Source: Spirochaetota bacterium (GTDB lineage Bacteria > Spirochaetota > UBA4802 > UBA5550). Taken from it: a stretch of DNA of 64,000 nt. The notes under the pieces were generated by a model. That model saw only the letters and a program-made list of their open reading frames with translations, was not told the DNA's origin and searched no databases. Numbering within the stretch: position 1 is the first letter of the stretch; each line of letters begins with the position of its first letter. Made by a program: the position numbers and the translations under genes. Below, one piece after another: positions 15,173 to 59,423 of the stretch. Location: contig JAJRXZ010000026.1 of NCBI GenBank assembly GCA_024276015.1, positions 1 through 64,000 of the forward strand. The letters are read 5' to 3'.

Positions 15173-16159
15173 CTATATCCAAAATTTTATTTTTCTTAAC
15201 AGAGCATTCCGCGATTTTGTACAGGCTATATAACCTCTGGACATTACCATTGATACATTTGAGAAATCCATGGTGCCCAATCCTGGAATATCAGGCTCTA
15301 TTAATACATGAGGAGAATTATACTTAAGCATTACCATTGTATTCACATATTCCATAATATCAATGGACCGGGAAATAACCTCAATTATATTGGGCATATG
15401 TTCTTTTTCTTTACTGTTAATACCGACCCAGTGTTCAATCGATTTTATGATATTGTTCTGTTTCGATCTATCTTTCGACATCAATTCATACTGATCATCA
15501 ATGATCTCAATATCTTCCGAATCTATCAGATCCTCCCACTCTCCCCTCTTTGACTTTATGTATTTTTTATATTTTCGCTCATCGATTTTCGGGTGAAGGT
15601 TTACGGCTACTACTAATCCTGCACCCATTCTTCTTATTACATTTACAGGCAGCGGATTCGCAACTCCTCCGTCAATCAAATAGGTACTTCTATATTTTAC
15701 AGGAATAAAAATACCGGGCACAGAGATGCTTGCCCTGATAGCCTCCAGAACATTTCCTCTTCTAAAAAGTACCGACTTCCCATTAAAATAATTTGTTGCA
15801 ACAATACCGAGTTTTATCTTGAAATCCTCGATATTCTTATCATGAGGTATATACTGCGCCAGAAAATCAATGATCTTTCTCCCCTCAAGAAGCCCCGATC
15901 TCGGAATTACCGGATCGAAATACTTTATAATTCCCTTTCTGTTAAGTTTAACAATATCTTTTTTAAATCTCTCAAGACTGCCTGCACAATATACAGCGCC
16001 AATAACAGCGCCAATACTTGAGCCTACTATCATATCAACAGGGATATCAAGCCCATTTAGATACTCAATCACAGAAATATGCGAAATACCTTTGGCTCCG
16101 CCGCTTCCCAGAACCAGACCCACTTTTCTGTTTCTAAAATACTTAAGAGGATTGATCAT
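15173..16159 (-). CDS. Patatin-like phospholipase (RssA/YchK type)
   Basis: Serine lipid acyl hydrolase of about 328 aa. The oxyanion loop GSGGAKG (18-24), the nucleophile elbow GSSIG (46-50, S48) and the catalytic Asp in LIDGGVANPLPV (D163) are all present, giving a complete Ser-Asp dyad. No signal peptide; predicted cytosolic or peripheral. The C-terminal 120 residues are a less conserved helical part. It is the first gene of a unit with lnt (3-base gap), suggesting a link to phospholipid or lipoprotein turnover. It is a useful active reference for the degenerate patatin-like domain at 56238-58064. Confidence 0.9.
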   Translation of the reverse strand: MINPLKYFRNRKVGLVLGSGGAKGISHISVIEYLNGLDIPVDMIVGSSIGAVIGAVYCAGSLERFKKDIVKLNRKGIIKYFDPVIPRSGLLEGRKIIDFLAQYIPHDKNIEDFKIKLGIVATNYFNGKSVLFRRGNVLEAIRASISVPGIFIPVKYRSTYLIDGGVANPLPVNVIRRMGAGLVVAVNLHPKIDERKYKKYIKSKRGEWEDLIDSEDIEIIDDQYELMSKDRSKQNNIIKSIEHWVGINSKEKEHMPNIIEVISRSIDIMEYVNTMVMLKYNSPHVLIEPDIPGLGTMDFSNVSMVMSRGYIACTKSRNALLRKIKFWI

Positions 16160-53006: not shown

Positions 53007-55229
53007 CTACTTCTTTTTTCTGATAAATCTTACCAGTGAGGGCCATCCGTTAATAACGTGCGAATTGTTGACAGATTTTTTCAGTATAAAATCCTCTCCT
53101 TCAAGCAGTTGAGCCTTAAATGGGAGAGTTATCATAATATCAGGGGGAATATATTTCGGAAGTTCATCAAAGTGAAATTGTATTTCATTGGTTGTGGCTT
53201 TCATTTTAAAATTTATTTTGCCGAATCTGGAAGGCGCATCCTTAACAATTATTTCCCGCCCCGATTTAAACCAGTCTTCAACCGGTATTGGGAATATGTC
53301 CAGTCTGTCCTTTGTATCAATAAAGAGCATATTCCTTATAAATATAAAAAAGAGAGCACTTGCCGATTTGGAACAGCCCTCTCCCCAACAGCCATAGCCG
53401 GTGGAAGGGTTAACAAATTCAGGCAGAGTGCAGCTCTCTCCTCCAAACTTAGATAGATCATCTATCACACCGAGAGCCCTTCTGTCCTTTAATGCCAGCA
53501 GATTATTAGCCAGTATCAGATTAGAGATAATATCAATCCCAAGGGATCTGTTAAATAATTCGGTTCCGTTAAAATAATCAATTATTTTATCTATTACTAT
53601 TTTTAACCGGTCGCTTTTTGAAATATTGAGCCTGTAAGGAAAACCTGAAACCATATCCATATAGAAAAAATCATCTGTAATCGATTTTTTTTCATATCCG
53701 GAAAGATAAGCAGCGTACATATTTTGGAGCCTTTCGGACTCCCCTGCAAATGCAGCCTCATCTCCGAAAATACCGAGACACCTGGCCATATAGGAACACT
53801 GGTCAAGAGCAAAGGAGAGCAATATTATGTCATGGAAATGAGCTCTATCCTGATAAAAGAAATCCAATGAATTTTCTTTTAAACTGTTAATATTTTTTAT
53901 TTTCTCAGAATATTTCAATATCTTCTCAGCAATTGTTTTAAACAGACTGTTATAATTCAATTGGAGATAATCGAGGTCACGCGTGTGCAAAAAGTAATCT
54001 GCGAAGGATACAATAAAATAACAGTAAACAATTGCAAAATTGAAGTCCGCTTCCTGCTCCTTTACAGTATATTTACCGATCAAATCCGCTATTAACCCTT
54101 TTGATTCATTAAAATACCCCATTCTGTTGTAGCCTGCAATTATATATGAGATCTCTCTCCATTTTGCAATATATGCGGTATTTAATGAGAGTTCCTTTTT
54201 AATATAATTCAGCGTTGATAACTTTGAACAATAAAACCAGCTTATTAGTTTATCATCCGGTATCTTTATGTTCATACCGGAATTGATCCTGATCTTTGAA
54301 TATTCATGATATTCCTTTTCAAGCTCTTTGAAATTCATTTTAAGAGAAGACAAATTACCTTTACCGCTTAACATAACTCTGAAGTGGAAAATATTTTTCC
54401 CCTTTGTTATATTATATCCGAACAGCATAGTGCTCATATACTGGCTGCACCTGACATTATAAGAATTCTTTTCAATACTTTTGAGGTCAACATCTCCTGA
54501 CTCTCCATTGCCTGTTAAAACGAATACCGGGTCGCCCGATAAAGCAAGGGATCTTCTTCCGTTTATACTGACAAGTTTGCCGCTTTTACTGTAATCTATT
54601 GAACCGATACTGCCTATAACCAGTTGGTTGTAAGGCCGTACCGCAAGAATAAGATAAGCATCTTTTGCCTGCCCCTTAAGGGAAAGCAGAACCTCCACAA
54701 CCGCTTCATCAACCGTACTCTTTGCACCGTAAATTTTCTGTTTTAAATTAAAGAGTTTATTTTCCAGGTTAACTTCAATATTGGAGGTGCTGAGATCAGA
54801 TCTGACTGACACATCGTCAATATTCTCCTGGGCTCTGTATAATTGTCCCCCCTTTAAAATCCAGAATTCCAGGGACCAATTGTCATAAGATATTGAAATG
54901 GCCCCTGACGGATCGATACAGAGCTCTTCATCAGAGATAAAGGTGGTGAACGCGGTCCACTGTCTCACTCTGTTATTACACAGATAAAGAGGAGTTATAA
55001 GGTTCAAATGATTGAATGATCTATTGTCTATATTTTGATTTTGCACCCAGACAGGCCATCTGAAACTTGAAAATTTTTGGAAACGAATGTAATTTTCAAT
55101 TCCATAGATCAAATCTTTCCCTGAATATTTAACTTTATCCCTGTCAAGACCGGCAAGCCTTAAATCTGAAATATTTACTAACGAATCTGATTCTCTATTC
55201 TTTCCTTCGCGAAATTTAAAAGCTTTCAA
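53007..55229 (-). CDS. Large protein resembling six-hairpin (alpha/alpha)6 glycosidases
   Basis: 740 aa without a signal peptide. An N-terminal beta-rich part (about 1-330) and a long helical part (about 340-640) resemble the beta-sandwich plus (alpha/alpha)6 barrel layout of GH15/GH78-like enzymes. The segment LPEFVNPSTGYGCWGEGCSKSASALFF (about 620-646) is the typical helix-pair near the barrel end, and a final beta-sandwich follows. Catalytic acids cannot be identified by eye, so enzymatic activity is unproven. TTG is the only start near the upstream STAS gene (15 bases after its stop). Last gene of the cluster beginning at 59423. Confidence 0.6.
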   Translation of the reverse strand: MKAFKFREGKNRESDSLVNISDLRLAGLDRDKVKYSGKDLIYGIENYIRFQKFSSFRWPVWVQNQNIDNRSFNHLNLITPLYLCNNRVRQWTAFTTFISDEELCIDPSGAISISYDNWSLEFWILKGGQLYRAQENIDDVSVRSDLSTSNIEVNLENKLFNLKQKIYGAKSTVDEAVVEVLLSLKGQAKDAYLILAVRPYNQLVIGSIGSIDYSKSGKLVSINGRRSLALSGDPVFVLTGNGESGDVDLKSIEKNSYNVRCSQYMSTMLFGYNITKGKNIFHFRVMLSGKGNLSSLKMNFKELEKEYHEYSKIRINSGMNIKIPDDKLISWFYCSKLSTLNYIKKELSLNTAYIAKWREISYIIAGYNRMGYFNESKGLIADLIGKYTVKEQEADFNFAIVYCYFIVSFADYFLHTRDLDYLQLNYNSLFKTIAEKILKYSEKIKNINSLKENSLDFFYQDRAHFHDIILLSFALDQCSYMARCLGIFGDEAAFAGESERLQNMYAAYLSGYEKKSITDDFFYMDMVSGFPYRLNISKSDRLKIVIDKIIDYFNGTELFNRSLGIDIISNLILANNLLALKDRRALGVIDDLSKFGGESCTLPEFVNPSTGYGCWGEGCSKSASALFFIFIRNMLFIDTKDRLDIFPIPVEDWFKSGREIIVKDAPSRFGKINFKMKATTNEIQFHFDELPKYIPPDIMITLPFKAQLLEGEDFILKKSVNNSHVINGWPSLVRFIRKKK

Positions 55230-55244
55230 TATAATTATCCGAAT

Positions 55245-55589
55245 CTATTCATTTTTAAATGCCTCAAGAGCATCTTCTTCAGTATCATATATATCAAACA
55301 TATCCATGAGTTCAACGACTTCGAATATCTTTTTTACCGCATTATTCATTTCGCATAGTTTCAATTTCCTTTTTGATTCTTTCAATATCCTCATAGTCGA
55401 TACAAAAATCCTCAATCCCGAACTGCTCATATATTCAACTTTTTTCAAATTTAAAAGCAAATGGTCGCCGGGATTATTTTCAATTATTTTATTGATCTCC
55501 TTTTCTATATCAACCGACAAATGCACATCCAGTCTGCCGGAAAGCTCTATTACCCAGACATTATCAATTTTTTTTGTATTAAGTTTCAT
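55245..55589 (-). CDS. STAS-domain anti-sigma-factor antagonist
   Basis: 114 aa, a single SpoIIAA-type STAS domain: LNTKKIDNVWVIELSGRLD at the start, then LLLNLKKVEYMSSSGLRIFVST (about 44-65) with the phosphorylatable Ser in the SSSGL loop, and KLKLCEMNNAVKKIFEVVEL. Such proteins bind and release anti-sigma kinases in phosphorylation-controlled switches. No kinase or phosphatase gene is adjacent. GGAG (in GATGGAGTAA) precedes the ATG. Followed by the glycosidase-like gene in 15 bases. Confidence 0.9.
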   Translation of the reverse strand: MKLNTKKIDNVWVIELSGRLDVHLSVDIEKEINKIIENNPGDHLLLNLKKVEYMSSSGLRIFVSTMRILKESKRKLKLCEMNNAVKKIFEVVELMDMFDIYDTEEDALEAFKNE

Positions 55590-55665: not shown

Positions 55666-56172
55666 TTATTCCAGACCGCTTCCGGCCTGTTTTTTTGTAA
55701 TTGCCAAACCTACGGCTGTAAGAAGACAAATCAGACTAAAAACGATACCCAGTATAACAACCGGCAAATGGATCGTATTGCCGGCTGAGATCAACTTTCC
55801 GTCAACAGTTACTATTTCTCCGGCAGTAAGCATCCTGATAAAACCATTATACATAAAAAGCGCGCCTGCCAGAAACGGAAAAATTAACCCGTTATAATAA
55901 ATAAGCCCCCTGTATCTCAGAGGTTCAAATAAGGGCATTATCATTGCAAGTCCCGATGTAAAAACAAGAGCGGAAAAACCTCTTGTCAGATAGTAGAGAG
56001 GCGCAACAAGCTCATTATCTCTTACAAGATCAAGCCAGTTTTCAGAAACATTCTCCGCAAATATTTTAAGCAGACTAACGGGGCTGATATAGAGGAATAA
56101 TCCCAAAAGTATATATATCAAACCGGTAAGCAGAACAATTCCCTGCAAAATATTTGTTGCTCTTGATCTCAT
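55666..56172 (-). CDS. Four-helix integral membrane protein of unknown function
   Basis: About 168 aa with four predicted transmembrane helices (roughly 8-30, 58-80, 88-108 and 135-160 from the chosen start) and one polar loop (GEIVTVDGKLISAGNT). I start at the ATG at 56172 because GGGAGGG lies about 8 bases before it; the ORF is open eight codons further. No family recognised. Lies between the cNMP/ParA/patatin-like gene (65-base gap) and the STAS gene (76-base gap). Confidence 0.65.
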   Translation of the reverse strand: MRSRATNILQGIVLLTGLIYILLGLFLYISPVSLLKIFAENVSENWLDLVRDNELVAPLYYLTRGFSALVFTSGLAMIMPLFEPLRYRGLIYYNGLIFPFLAGALFMYNGFIRMLTAGEIVTVDGKLISAGNTIHLPVVILGIVFSLICLLTAVGLAITKKQAGSGLE

Positions 56173-56237
56173 TATAAGTCCCTCCCTATTCAGCAAACAA
56201 TTTAATCAATTAATATATATCCGATCAGATTTATTCT

Positions 56238-58064
56238 TTATTTGATATCATTATCGTTCAACAATTTAATTGAATTTTTTTCAGAATTTTCTATAATCCG
56301 ATCAATTTTCATATCTTTTTCGGATACCTCAATGGAAAGGTTCTTATCTGCCAGTTCAGTTCCCTTTTCAAGAATCTGATCATTATCAAATAATTCAATA
56401 TATGACCTAAAAAAATTGAGCAGCCTCTTTTCTCTGAATTTTAATTTTTCTCTGTTGTTGATCGAAACATAAAAAATCTCGTCAATATCAGCTCTGAAAA
56501 GATCTTCAACTTTTACTCTCTTTGAAGGATAACCGGAATTAAATTCAATATTATTGATCTTTTCCGATTCAAAAACAGGATGCATTAAAAAAGAAGCTCC
56601 TGCAAGCTGCTTCATGTAACCGGTACTGAATATCTTTCTGCCGCCCTGTTCCGATCTGCTTAAAAGGACAACCGGTAAACTCTTAAATTTTTCAATTCTG
56701 GTATTTGAGCATATCTCAGAAAAATATTTTGCAATATTATTTTTCTTAAAAACATAATTCTCCGGGAAGACAATGTTTAAAAGAGTATTAATTCTTTCTT
56801 CAGAATAAAGATCTTTGACTTTTTTCACAAAGCCCGCATCATCTCTGCTTAAAAGATACAGCGTTATTAAAATATAACTAAAGGATGATGAATACAAAAA
56901 ATCAATATTAATATCTCTTTTATCCAGGGCTTTGAAAAAACCGGCAAAGACAACGGATTCTATCAGATTCGTTTCGCAGACAATAGCCCTCTTTTTCTCG
57001 GTAATAAGGCTTATATACTCACTCATACCGCCCGAATCATTCAGAAACTTAATAATTTCGGAAACTCCTCGATCTCTGTCAATATTAAATTTTTCAAAAA
57101 TTAAGCCTCCCTCAACCTTGTGCTGTTTCCCTGAAAAAAACTCATTCTTAACATAATATACCCTCTGCCCTGCTGAACAATTGCTGTCAAAAAGATTATA
57201 AATACTATTATAATCTTTGGGTCTGTCAACTATACAGAAAATCTTATCTGAGAGTTTTAACATTTCATCCCTGAGAGCATGATCATAATCGGACAAATCA
57301 ACCAGTATATATCTATATCTGCCGGACAGAGCAAAGAGTACGGGAGATATTATTTCAGGATTGACCTTAACCTTGGATCCGAAAGATATATTAATCAAAT
57401 CAAGATTATCATTGACCCTCTCTATTTTCTCATCAATAATTTTAGCCGACGGATTATCGACCTGTTTTTGAGAAAGAGGCGAAGTGATCTTTTTATCGAA
57501 GAAATCGAAAACAGATTCACCTGTATAAGAAAGATCCAGAATTATAGATTTCCCATGATCAGAGAGAGAAAGTCCCATAAGAGCTGACAAGAGGGTTTTG
57601 CCGCATTTATTGTAAATGCTGTAAATCGAGATCACCCGGCTCATCTCATTGAAAAATCTGCCTGCAGAGGTTGAAATGCGGAAACCCATTTTGTCAATTG
57701 CCTTAATATAGCCTCTTGCCCCTTTCCAGGTGCCGATAAAAAATTTATATATATCCTCCTCGTTGAATATCAGCAATGTGGAATCTTTTACAGCTTTAAT
57801 TGACCCGCTCTGTCTGTTATCGGTAAAGGGGATACTGCCGAAATATGATCCCGGGGGGAGGTAAACAATCTCTTTTTTACCAAAAACTTCGATCTCAAAT
57901 ATCCCATTAATGACTACGTTAAGAGATCTGGTCTTTTTTAAATCAAAAATCTGATCCCTTTTTATTCTTGAAATACGTCCTATCTTATGGAGATGAGATA
58001 TTTCAGTATCGGTACAATGTCTGAGAAAGGGGATGTCGGAGAGTATTTTCCTGATAAAACTCAT
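56238..58064 (-). CDS. Degenerate cNMP-binding / ParA-like / patatin-like three-domain protein
   Basis: 608 aa, cytosolic. N-terminal cyclic-nucleotide-binding fold (about 10-115) with YLPPGSYFGSIPF in place of the usual FGE motif. A ParA/MinD-like domain (about 143-345) follows, with a deviant Walker A NKCGKT (152-157) and a Walker-B-like YILVDLSDYD (252-261). The C-terminal domain (about 358-550) aligns in order with patatins such as the gene at 15173, but the oxyanion loop reads CETNLIES, the GxSxG elbow reads SSSFS (392-396) and the DGG Asp is replaced in FNSG (N509). So the fold seems kept and the catalysis lost. The arrangement resembles NTE/Rv2565-type cNMP-patatin proteins. Starts 9 bases after the TPR-Mrr-like gene. 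Confidence 0.7.
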   Translation of the reverse strand: MSFIRKILSDIPFLRHCTDTEISHLHKIGRISRIKRDQIFDLKKTRSLNVVINGIFEIEVFGKKEIVYLPPGSYFGSIPFTDNRQSGSIKAVKDSTLLIFNEEDIYKFFIGTWKGARGYIKAIDKMGFRISTSAGRFFNEMSRVISIYSIYNKCGKTLLSALMGLSLSDHGKSIILDLSYTGESVFDFFDKKITSPLSQKQVDNPSAKIIDEKIERVNDNLDLINISFGSKVKVNPEIISPVLFALSGRYRYILVDLSDYDHALRDEMLKLSDKIFCIVDRPKDYNSIYNLFDSNCSAGQRVYYVKNEFFSGKQHKVEGGLIFEKFNIDRDRGVSEIIKFLNDSGGMSEYISLITEKKRAIVCETNLIESVVFAGFFKALDKRDINIDFLYSSSFSYILITLYLLSRDDAGFVKKVKDLYSEERINTLLNIVFPENYVFKKNNIAKYFSEICSNTRIEKFKSLPVVLLSRSEQGGRKIFSTGYMKQLAGASFLMHPVFESEKINNIEFNSGYPSKRVKVEDLFRADIDEIFYVSINNREKLKFREKRLLNFFRSYIELFDNDQILEKGTELADKNLSIEVSEKDMKIDRIIENSEKNSIKLLNDNDIK

Positions 58065-58073
58065 CAGATTATA

Positions 58074-59423
58074 TTATATCTTCTTCAGGATTTCTATTAA
58101 ATCACTTTTGGATAAAATTTCAATGGGTCTTGTATTGGCAAAATCAACAGCTTTTGAAGAATACTCGCCTGTTGAAATTATCATAACCCTTGAAGCGTTT
58201 TTTAATTTCATTGACTCGTGCAGCTTCCTTAAAAGTGATTCCTGTACTTTGTCTGTTGTGCGGATAAACCTTATTATTCTATTTGTCTGCCTTGTGTTGC
58301 GCCATTTGCCCTCTGTTTCATTAGCAATGATCTCGATCTCAGTATCGCTGATTATCTCAATATCACTTACGTTAAAACCCATTGCCTGAACCATCTTACG
58401 GCACATGTGCTCAAACTTCGAAAGTCCCGCTATCATAAAATCTTTTATCCTGTCGTCCTGTCTGAATTCGGCAAATTTCTTTAACTTCTCCTGCACATCT
58501 CTGAATTTAGGATTTACTGCAGAAATTTTTTCCCAGTTAGTAATAGCGGAGTGAACGTCTCTTAACTTCTCCTGACATTCTGCAAGGAAATACCTCAGGT
58601 TCAATTCGGTAACGGACCCGCTTCTAACATATTTCAAACCTCTTTCAAACTCTTGAACCGCTTTTGGGAAATGCCCCCGTTCCATATGACAGGAACCCTT
58701 TGCAAGAAAACATTTTACTCTCAGCTCTTCACTCTTTTGAGCGGTCTCAAACTCCTTAATGGCCCATTCATAATCGTTAAGCTGTCTCAATACAAGGCCC
58801 AAAAAATAATGAGCTCTGTAATTCTGCGGATCCTGTTTTAAGACATTGATAAACATCTGCTTTGCATCCTGATAGATCCCGCTTTTATAGAGGATCTGAC
58901 CGAGATAGTAGTATGACATTTCATGCCTTGGGTTCACAGCAATGCTCTTTTTTAAAAAACCGGACGCCTTTTCCATTACTCCCAGATCATAAAAGATCAA
59001 CCCCAGTTCAAAATAGTTAACATAATTGTCAGGTTCCAGTTTGGTTAATATGAGATACTCTTTTTTAGCCTCTTCAATGGATTTCCTTTCTTTAAACAAT
59101 CTTGCAAGATTTGCTCTTACCTCCGTTTCTTTTATCTTATCAGTATATCTTCCGAGCCGCAGCACCTGTCTGTACTCGATTATTGCATACTGGCTGTTCT
59201 TTTCCAGATCATAAGCTTTTGCCAGCAAGAAATGAGCATAAGCATTTCTGTCGTCTTTTTCAATAAGTTCATTCAATTTTTTTATTGCCGGTTTTGTCTG
59301 ACCGTTTTCAATCATCCTGGCAATCTCCTCAATCTTCTTTGGAATAATTATACTGCTGAAAATATAGAACACAATTATCCCCAGAATAATAAAGAGTACA
59401 AAAATCATTACATAAGTGATCAT
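58074..59423 (-). CDS. Membrane-anchored TPR protein with a C-terminal Mrr-like nuclease fold
   Basis: 449 aa. One N-terminal transmembrane helix (about 4-26), about eight TPRs (about 33-310), and a last domain (about 330-449) resembling the type IV restriction endonuclease Mrr catalytic domain: FEHMCRKMVQAMGFNV, TEIEIIANE (where D of the core is Glu), NRIIRFIR (where QxK is expected), MIISTGEYSSKAVDFAN and IEILSKSDLIEIL. The catalytic QxK lysine is missing, so nuclease activity is unlikely. First gene of the five-gene minus-strand cluster. Confidence 0.72.
   Translation of the reverse strand: MITYVMIFVLFIILGIIVFYIFSSIIIPKKIEEIARMIENGQTKPAIKKLNELIEKDDRNAYAHFLLAKAYDLEKNSQYAIIEYRQVLRLGRYTDKIKETEVRANLARLFKERKSIEEAKKEYLILTKLEPDNYVNYFELGLIFYDLGVMEKASGFLKKSIAVNPRHEMSYYYLGQILYKSGIYQDAKQMFINVLKQDPQNYRAHYFLGLVLRQLNDYEWAIKEFETAQKSEELRVKCFLAKGSCHMERGHFPKAVQEFERGLKYVRSGSVTELNLRYFLAECQEKLRDVHSAITNWEKISAVNPKFRDVQEKLKKFAEFRQDDRIKDFMIAGLSKFEHMCRKMVQAMGFNVSDIEIISDTEIEIIANETEGKWRNTRQTNRIIRFIRTTDKVQESLLRKLHESMKLKNASRVMIISTGEYSSKAVDFANTRPIEILSKSDLIEILKKI

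Follow-up and report, generated by a model that had tools for sequence, protein, structure and literature searches.

The window analysed here, a stretch of 64,000 nucleotides, comes from contig 10 of a draft genome of 2.86 Mb that is 95% complete. It contains an open reading frame, 56238 to 58064, that begins with ATG and encodes a protein of 608 amino acids; these limits agree with the first-pass annotation, made from the sequence by eye, and the ORF is real (Table 1). Across the order of uncultured spirochaetes to which this genome belongs, the gene lies in the series GreA, TPR/Mrr protein, 608-aa protein, 176-aa membrane protein, STAS protein and 740-aa protein, an order kept, with single exceptions, wherever contigs are long enough. 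The gene begins 9 bases past the stop of the TPR/Mrr gene, so co-transcription of the two is probable. The TPR/Mrr protein carries one N-terminal hydrophobic segment, and its gene is found throughout the phylum (177 of 198 Spirochaetota genomes). Inspected by eye, the strand expected to carry the QxK of active Mrr nucleases reads RIIRFIRT instead; judged from these residues, this partner may be a second pseudo-enzyme beside the first. The 176-aa membrane protein, whose gene separates that of the pseudo-patatin from the STAS gene, has no Pfam or NCBIfam match. The 740-aa protein has no confident match in either collection, and its C-terminal part may resemble six-hairpin glycosidases; ORFs weakly related to it (22 to 23% identity) follow the STAS gene at two loci sampled outside the order (L137 and L140).

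Table 1. Features of the 608-aa protein and its conserved neighbours in the window.
Feature	Position	Strand	Basis
Three-domain protein (CNBD, ParA-like, NTE-type patatin)	56238..58064	-	ORF; order-wide homologues
Degenerate CNBD fold, residues 1-138	57651..58064	-	Pfam PF00027 in homologues; Foldseek 1u12
FGS at the FGE position of the phosphate-binding cassette, residues 75-77	57834..57842	-	
ParA/MinD-like P-loop domain, residues 142-330	57075..57641	-	Pfam in homologues; Foldseek 3ea0; family HMM
GKT Walker A core, residues 155-157	57594..57602	-	
Asp177, Walker A′-type LDxS motif (41/42)	57534..57536	-	
Asp256, Walker B position (41/42)	57297..57299	-	
NTE-type patatin fold without catalytic residues, residues 356-540	56445..56999	-	hhalign; Foldseek PlpD; PF01734
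ETNLIES replacing oxyanion loop GGGGAKG, residues 364-370	56955..56975	-	
SSSFS at the GxSxG position, residues 392-396; Ser394 in the nucleophile column	56877..56891	-	
SGY replacing DGG, residues 510-512	56529..56537	-	
TPR + Mrr_cat-like protein, directly upstream, gap of 9 bases	58074..59423	-	
176-aa membrane protein, conserved downstream neighbour	55666..56196	-	
STAS anti-sigma factor antagonist-type protein (TIGR00377, 85.5 bits), conserved neighbour	55245..55589	-	
740-aa protein, conserved neighbour	53007..55229	-	

Homologues in genome contigs were found with an alignment of closer members, a broader alignment being too diverse; a scan of the contigs with the single 608-aa sequence returned no matches. 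In addition, 296 Spirochaetota genomes were scanned with a family profile (HMM). The named homologue records all belong to Spirochaetota metagenome bins. Viral contigs scanned with the family gave none, and so no sign of a phage origin. NCBIfam and PADLOC named no informative family for the protein, and a PADLOC nickase match (residues 377-476, E 3e-4) falls inside the patatin fold and was taken as chance. A defence-system reading was dropped in view of the fixed gene order in the order, the single copy and the housekeeping neighbours (GreA, RseC and M16). Among the open-access titles and abstracts searched, we found none describing a pseudo-patatin of cNMP-ParA-patatin architecture.

By itself, the protein matches Pfam only below threshold (cNMP_binding at 24.2 bits against a cut-off of 27.5, and no ParA or patatin profile), so that its domain assignment rests on homologues and on fold. 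In a Pfam scan of 33 family members, cNMP_binding (PF00027) matched 32 and Patatin (PF01734) 17 (best 1.5e-8), while ParA, CbiA and AAA_31 matched up to 14 (best 5.7e-6). An AlphaFold2 model built with 20 sequences has a mean pLDDT of 87.6 and a pTM of 0.89. Searched against the PDB with Foldseek, it retrieved 1u12 for the CNBD (TMt 0.79), the ATPase 3ea0 for the ParA region (TMt 0.60) and PlpD (5fya) for the patatin region (E 4.3e-11, TMt 0.69); this fold search superseded a phmmer search of the PDB in which nothing was significant. Profile-profile alignment with hhalign matched a patatin alignment (E 2.3e-18) and ran colinear with full-length NTE-like proteins over residues 4-535 (E 7.5e-23). 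The family HMM directly reached NTE-like patatin domains (2.9e-19) as well as ParA-sized and CNBD-sized ORFs in the 296 genomes. Together these comparisons uphold the domain order first proposed, cNMP to ParA-like to patatin-like, including a patatin-like fold at the C terminus, which is the architecture of NTE/PNPLA6-like proteins.

The active-site columns of the patatin domain were counted in an alignment of 42 family members. No member has a GGGxxG oxyanion loop, and none has Asp or Glu in the DGG column, where Ser (37), Ala (4) and Asn (1) are found; the loss of loop and catalytic Asp suspected from the window is therefore common to its homologues, none of which keeps the dyad. The proposed replacement of GxSxG holds for its glycines and fails for the serine itself: profile-profile alignment sets SSSFS on GTSAG, which leaves Ser394 in the nucleophile column. 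That column holds Ser in 22 members, Gly in 13, Ala in 4, and Cys, Phe and Asn in one each; 31 of the 42 have Ser at position 393. R456, E458 and R524 are retained in 41 of 42. The protein therefore has the fold of PF01734 and lacks its Ser-Asp dyad (GxSxG, DG[GA]) and GGGxxG loop, and the catalytic serine hydrolase site of NTE/PNPLA6-like proteins is absent.

Serines at 394, 393 and 510, in the former active-site columns, are possibly compatible with another chemistry. A hydrolase with a rewired site would use Ser394, or Ser393, as its nucleophile, with a different base taking over from the DGG Asp, and both the serine counts at these positions and the strand-turn-helix round the elbow, retained in the AlphaFold2 model, speak for it. 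However, the same alignment offers no oxyanion loop in any member and no acid at 510, and residue 394 itself is often Gly or Ala. In a genus with Gly at 394 (L010, L012, L014-L016), purifying selection on the patatin domain is the same (omega about 0.08-0.12), and those NTE-like proteins of the phylum that were inspected retain the full motif set. We consider a rewired hydrolase improbable.

Loss of canonical motifs in all three domains, together with the more degenerate state of members from other families (434-637 aa), might suggest a decaying gene on its way out, tolerated through its operon. The selection data contradict this. Nei-Gojobori dN/dS among close relatives lies between 0.04 and 0.35 for every domain and pair tested, well below 1, with the patatin domain (0.08-0.28) like the others, although many dS values exceed 1 and the larger distances are rough. 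Moreover, the locus is retained in the order: the gene is single-copy and found in 43 of 45 other genomes, the two genomes without it being 66-69% complete, and nearly all have a full-length ORF without internal stops, with the gene split over contigs in a few drafts. We give decay almost no credence. In a patatin-domain tree, all family members group together with a support of 84, at the end of a long branch; in view of midpoint rooting and long-branch attraction, the exact position of this clade is provisional.

The two N-terminal domains are altered to different degrees. In the CNBD, which passes as such by fold and lacks the FGE...R phosphate-binding cassette, F75 and G76 are conserved and the third residue varies, being Glu in 7 of 42 members. 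Here the cassette reads FGS, in line with the replacement of FGE noted at first reading, and it lacks the Arg that 2 of 42 members have at the canonical spacing. In the ParA-like domain, the fold, the Walker A′ and the Walker B Asp are those of the ParA/MinD group, and Walker A deviates from KGGxGK[ST]: the KGG is missing here, and the signature Lys at 151 occurs in 4 of 42 members. The first-pass annotation took the Walker A Lys and Thr as kept, which is correct for this protein (GKT) and does not extend to the Lys in the family; G155 and S/T157 each occur in 41 members, while K156 occurs in 34 and is Thr, Asn or Gly in the other 8, which belong to several genera. Judging from the near invariance of G155, S/T157, D177 and D256, ATP binding is possible in most members. 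At the level of sequence, then, the lipase site is gone in the whole family and the P-loop mostly retained.

This retention raises the alternative that the working part is an ATP-driven, ParA/MinD-like switch, cycling on a membrane or partner by ATP-dependent dimerisation, with the other domains as cargo or adaptor. The four nearly invariant positions and the Lys at 156 in 34 of 42 members are in its favour, as is mean column entropy across the 42 members, which is lowest in the ParA domain by a small margin; furthermore, the active NTE-like relatives inspected are without a P-loop, so that its retention here looks selected. Substitution of K156 in several genera and the missing signature Lys and GG of KGGxGK weigh against such a switch, which we hold to be rather unlikely, though it can overlap with the explanation we prefer.

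We also asked what occupies the same slot in other spirochaete families, using 20 loci outside the order that were picked for diversity and do not constitute a frequency sample. Divergent homologues (434-637 aa, HMM E 2e-8 to 3e-72) directly follow TPR/Mrr at seven sampled loci from four families (f22, f38, f41 and f46); Pfam scans of four of them gave no patatin, ParA or cNMP match. At three sampled loci of family f34 (L137, L140 and L143), the gene after TPR/Mrr is instead a 910-1033-aa ORF, which Pfam identifies in L137 as a GAF-SpoIIE-HATPase protein, and the STAS gene behind it is 53-60% identical to that of the window. At a locus of family f24 (L147), a SpoIIE protein, identified by Pfam, and a STAS protein follow TPR/Mrr, with one gene between. 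SpoIIE-type phosphatase genes, Pfam-supported in L137 and L147 only, stand beside TPR/Mrr and STAS genes at all four loci. TPR/Mrr-SpoIIE-STAS is possibly a conserved partner-switch locus of the phylum.

Since the same slot holds a GAF-SpoIIE-HATPase protein in another family, a part for the 608-aa protein in a STAS partner switch suggests itself. The protein is linked to a STAS gene and has no PP2C phosphatase or HATPase kinase domain. A search for the SpoIIE protein of the other arrangement at a different place in the host genome showed 11 SpoIIE domains there, with no full-length match to the L137 protein. Taken from gene order alone, such a role is tentative and, in our estimate, rather unlikely. 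The neighbouring membrane protein is absent from the SpoIIE arrangement, so that a displacement of SpoIIE would be read from position.

We favour the interpretation that the 608-aa protein is a predicted non-catalytic descendant of a bacterial NTE-like, cNMP-ParA-patatin protein that acts as a regulator or scaffold, to which we assign a probability of roughly 0.7. The earlier suggestion had two parts. That a dead lipase has become a scaffold or sensor finds good support in the loss of dyad and oxyanion loop, in selection, in the fold and in the locus. That it is nucleotide-gated is a tentative part: the CNBD is without the Glu and Arg by which cyclic nucleotides are held, and 8 of 42 members lack the P-loop Lys. 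In most members, the P-loop domain would bind an adenine nucleotide, which might set the conformation or dimerisation of the protein. The CNBD and pseudo-patatin would serve as binding or sensing surfaces for lipid or protein, the TPR partner could tether the protein to the membrane, and its output may feed a STAS-based partner-switch pathway. A bolder version holds that, in one spirochaete lineage, a dead NTE-type phospholipase replaced a SpoIIE/RsbU phosphatase as the partner-switch input at the membrane TPR/Mrr protein, with a ParA domain that binds ATP and a pseudo-patatin that senses lipid, and that, of the active sites of a shared cNMP-ParA-patatin ancestor, NTE-like proteins retained one and this family the other; as a whole, we regard this as speculative and unlikely to be correct.

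If the interpretation of a non-catalytic regulator or scaffold is right, patatins that are dead and under selection across an order provide a clean natural case in which the function of an NTE-type protein must sit in its non-catalytic parts. They bear in this way on the roles of the CNBD and the ParA-like region in NTE proteins.

Among the closest known systems, the RsbU/SpoIIE-STAS loci (L137, L140, L143 and L147) share the flanking TPR/Mrr gene and differ in having a SpoIIE-type occupant where the order has the 608-aa protein and a membrane protein. With CNBDs of the CRP/CNG type, the N-terminal domain shares the fold (1u12) and the FG of the phosphate-binding cassette, whereas the Glu is Ser here and the family has a motif of its own, G.FFG..PF...G. 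The middle domain resembles ParA/MinD ATPases (3ea0 and FlhG, 4rz3) in fold (TMt about 0.6), GK[ST], LDxS and the Walker B Asp; unlike them, it is without the signature KGG, has a variable Lys and is set between a CNBD and a pseudo-patatin.

The patatin domain has the fold of PlpD (TMt 0.69) and of an RssA-like patatin in the window (15173-16159), with which it shares colinear sequence segments. Unlike the 608-aa protein, the RssA-like protein, first annotated as active, has intact motifs (GSGGAKG, GSSIG and DGG; PF01734 at 1e-29), and it is the only other patatin found in the host genome. In PlpD the oxyanion loop, GxSxG and DGG are likewise intact.

According to an NTE review (PMC9025805), PNPLA6 has three sites for the binding of cyclic nucleotides, and its phospholipase domain is C-terminal. 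The bacterial NTE/PNPLA6-like proteins (L077 and L151-L158) have the same full-length domain order as the 608-aa family and share with it the stretches of the patatin domain around RIE and FSTG, but they retain the GGG/GGA loop, GxSxG and DG(G/S/A), while the family is without the dyad. In their middle region, a motif search and inspection by eye found no P-loop. The pattern is reversed between the two groups, with a P-loop and no dyad in the 608-aa family and a dyad and no P-loop in the inspected NTE-like relatives. This reciprocal retention suggests a nucleotide-binding switch as the origin of the ParA-like region in NTE, and the order-wide protein, catalytically dead by prediction, is a variant of a known, NTE-like kind.
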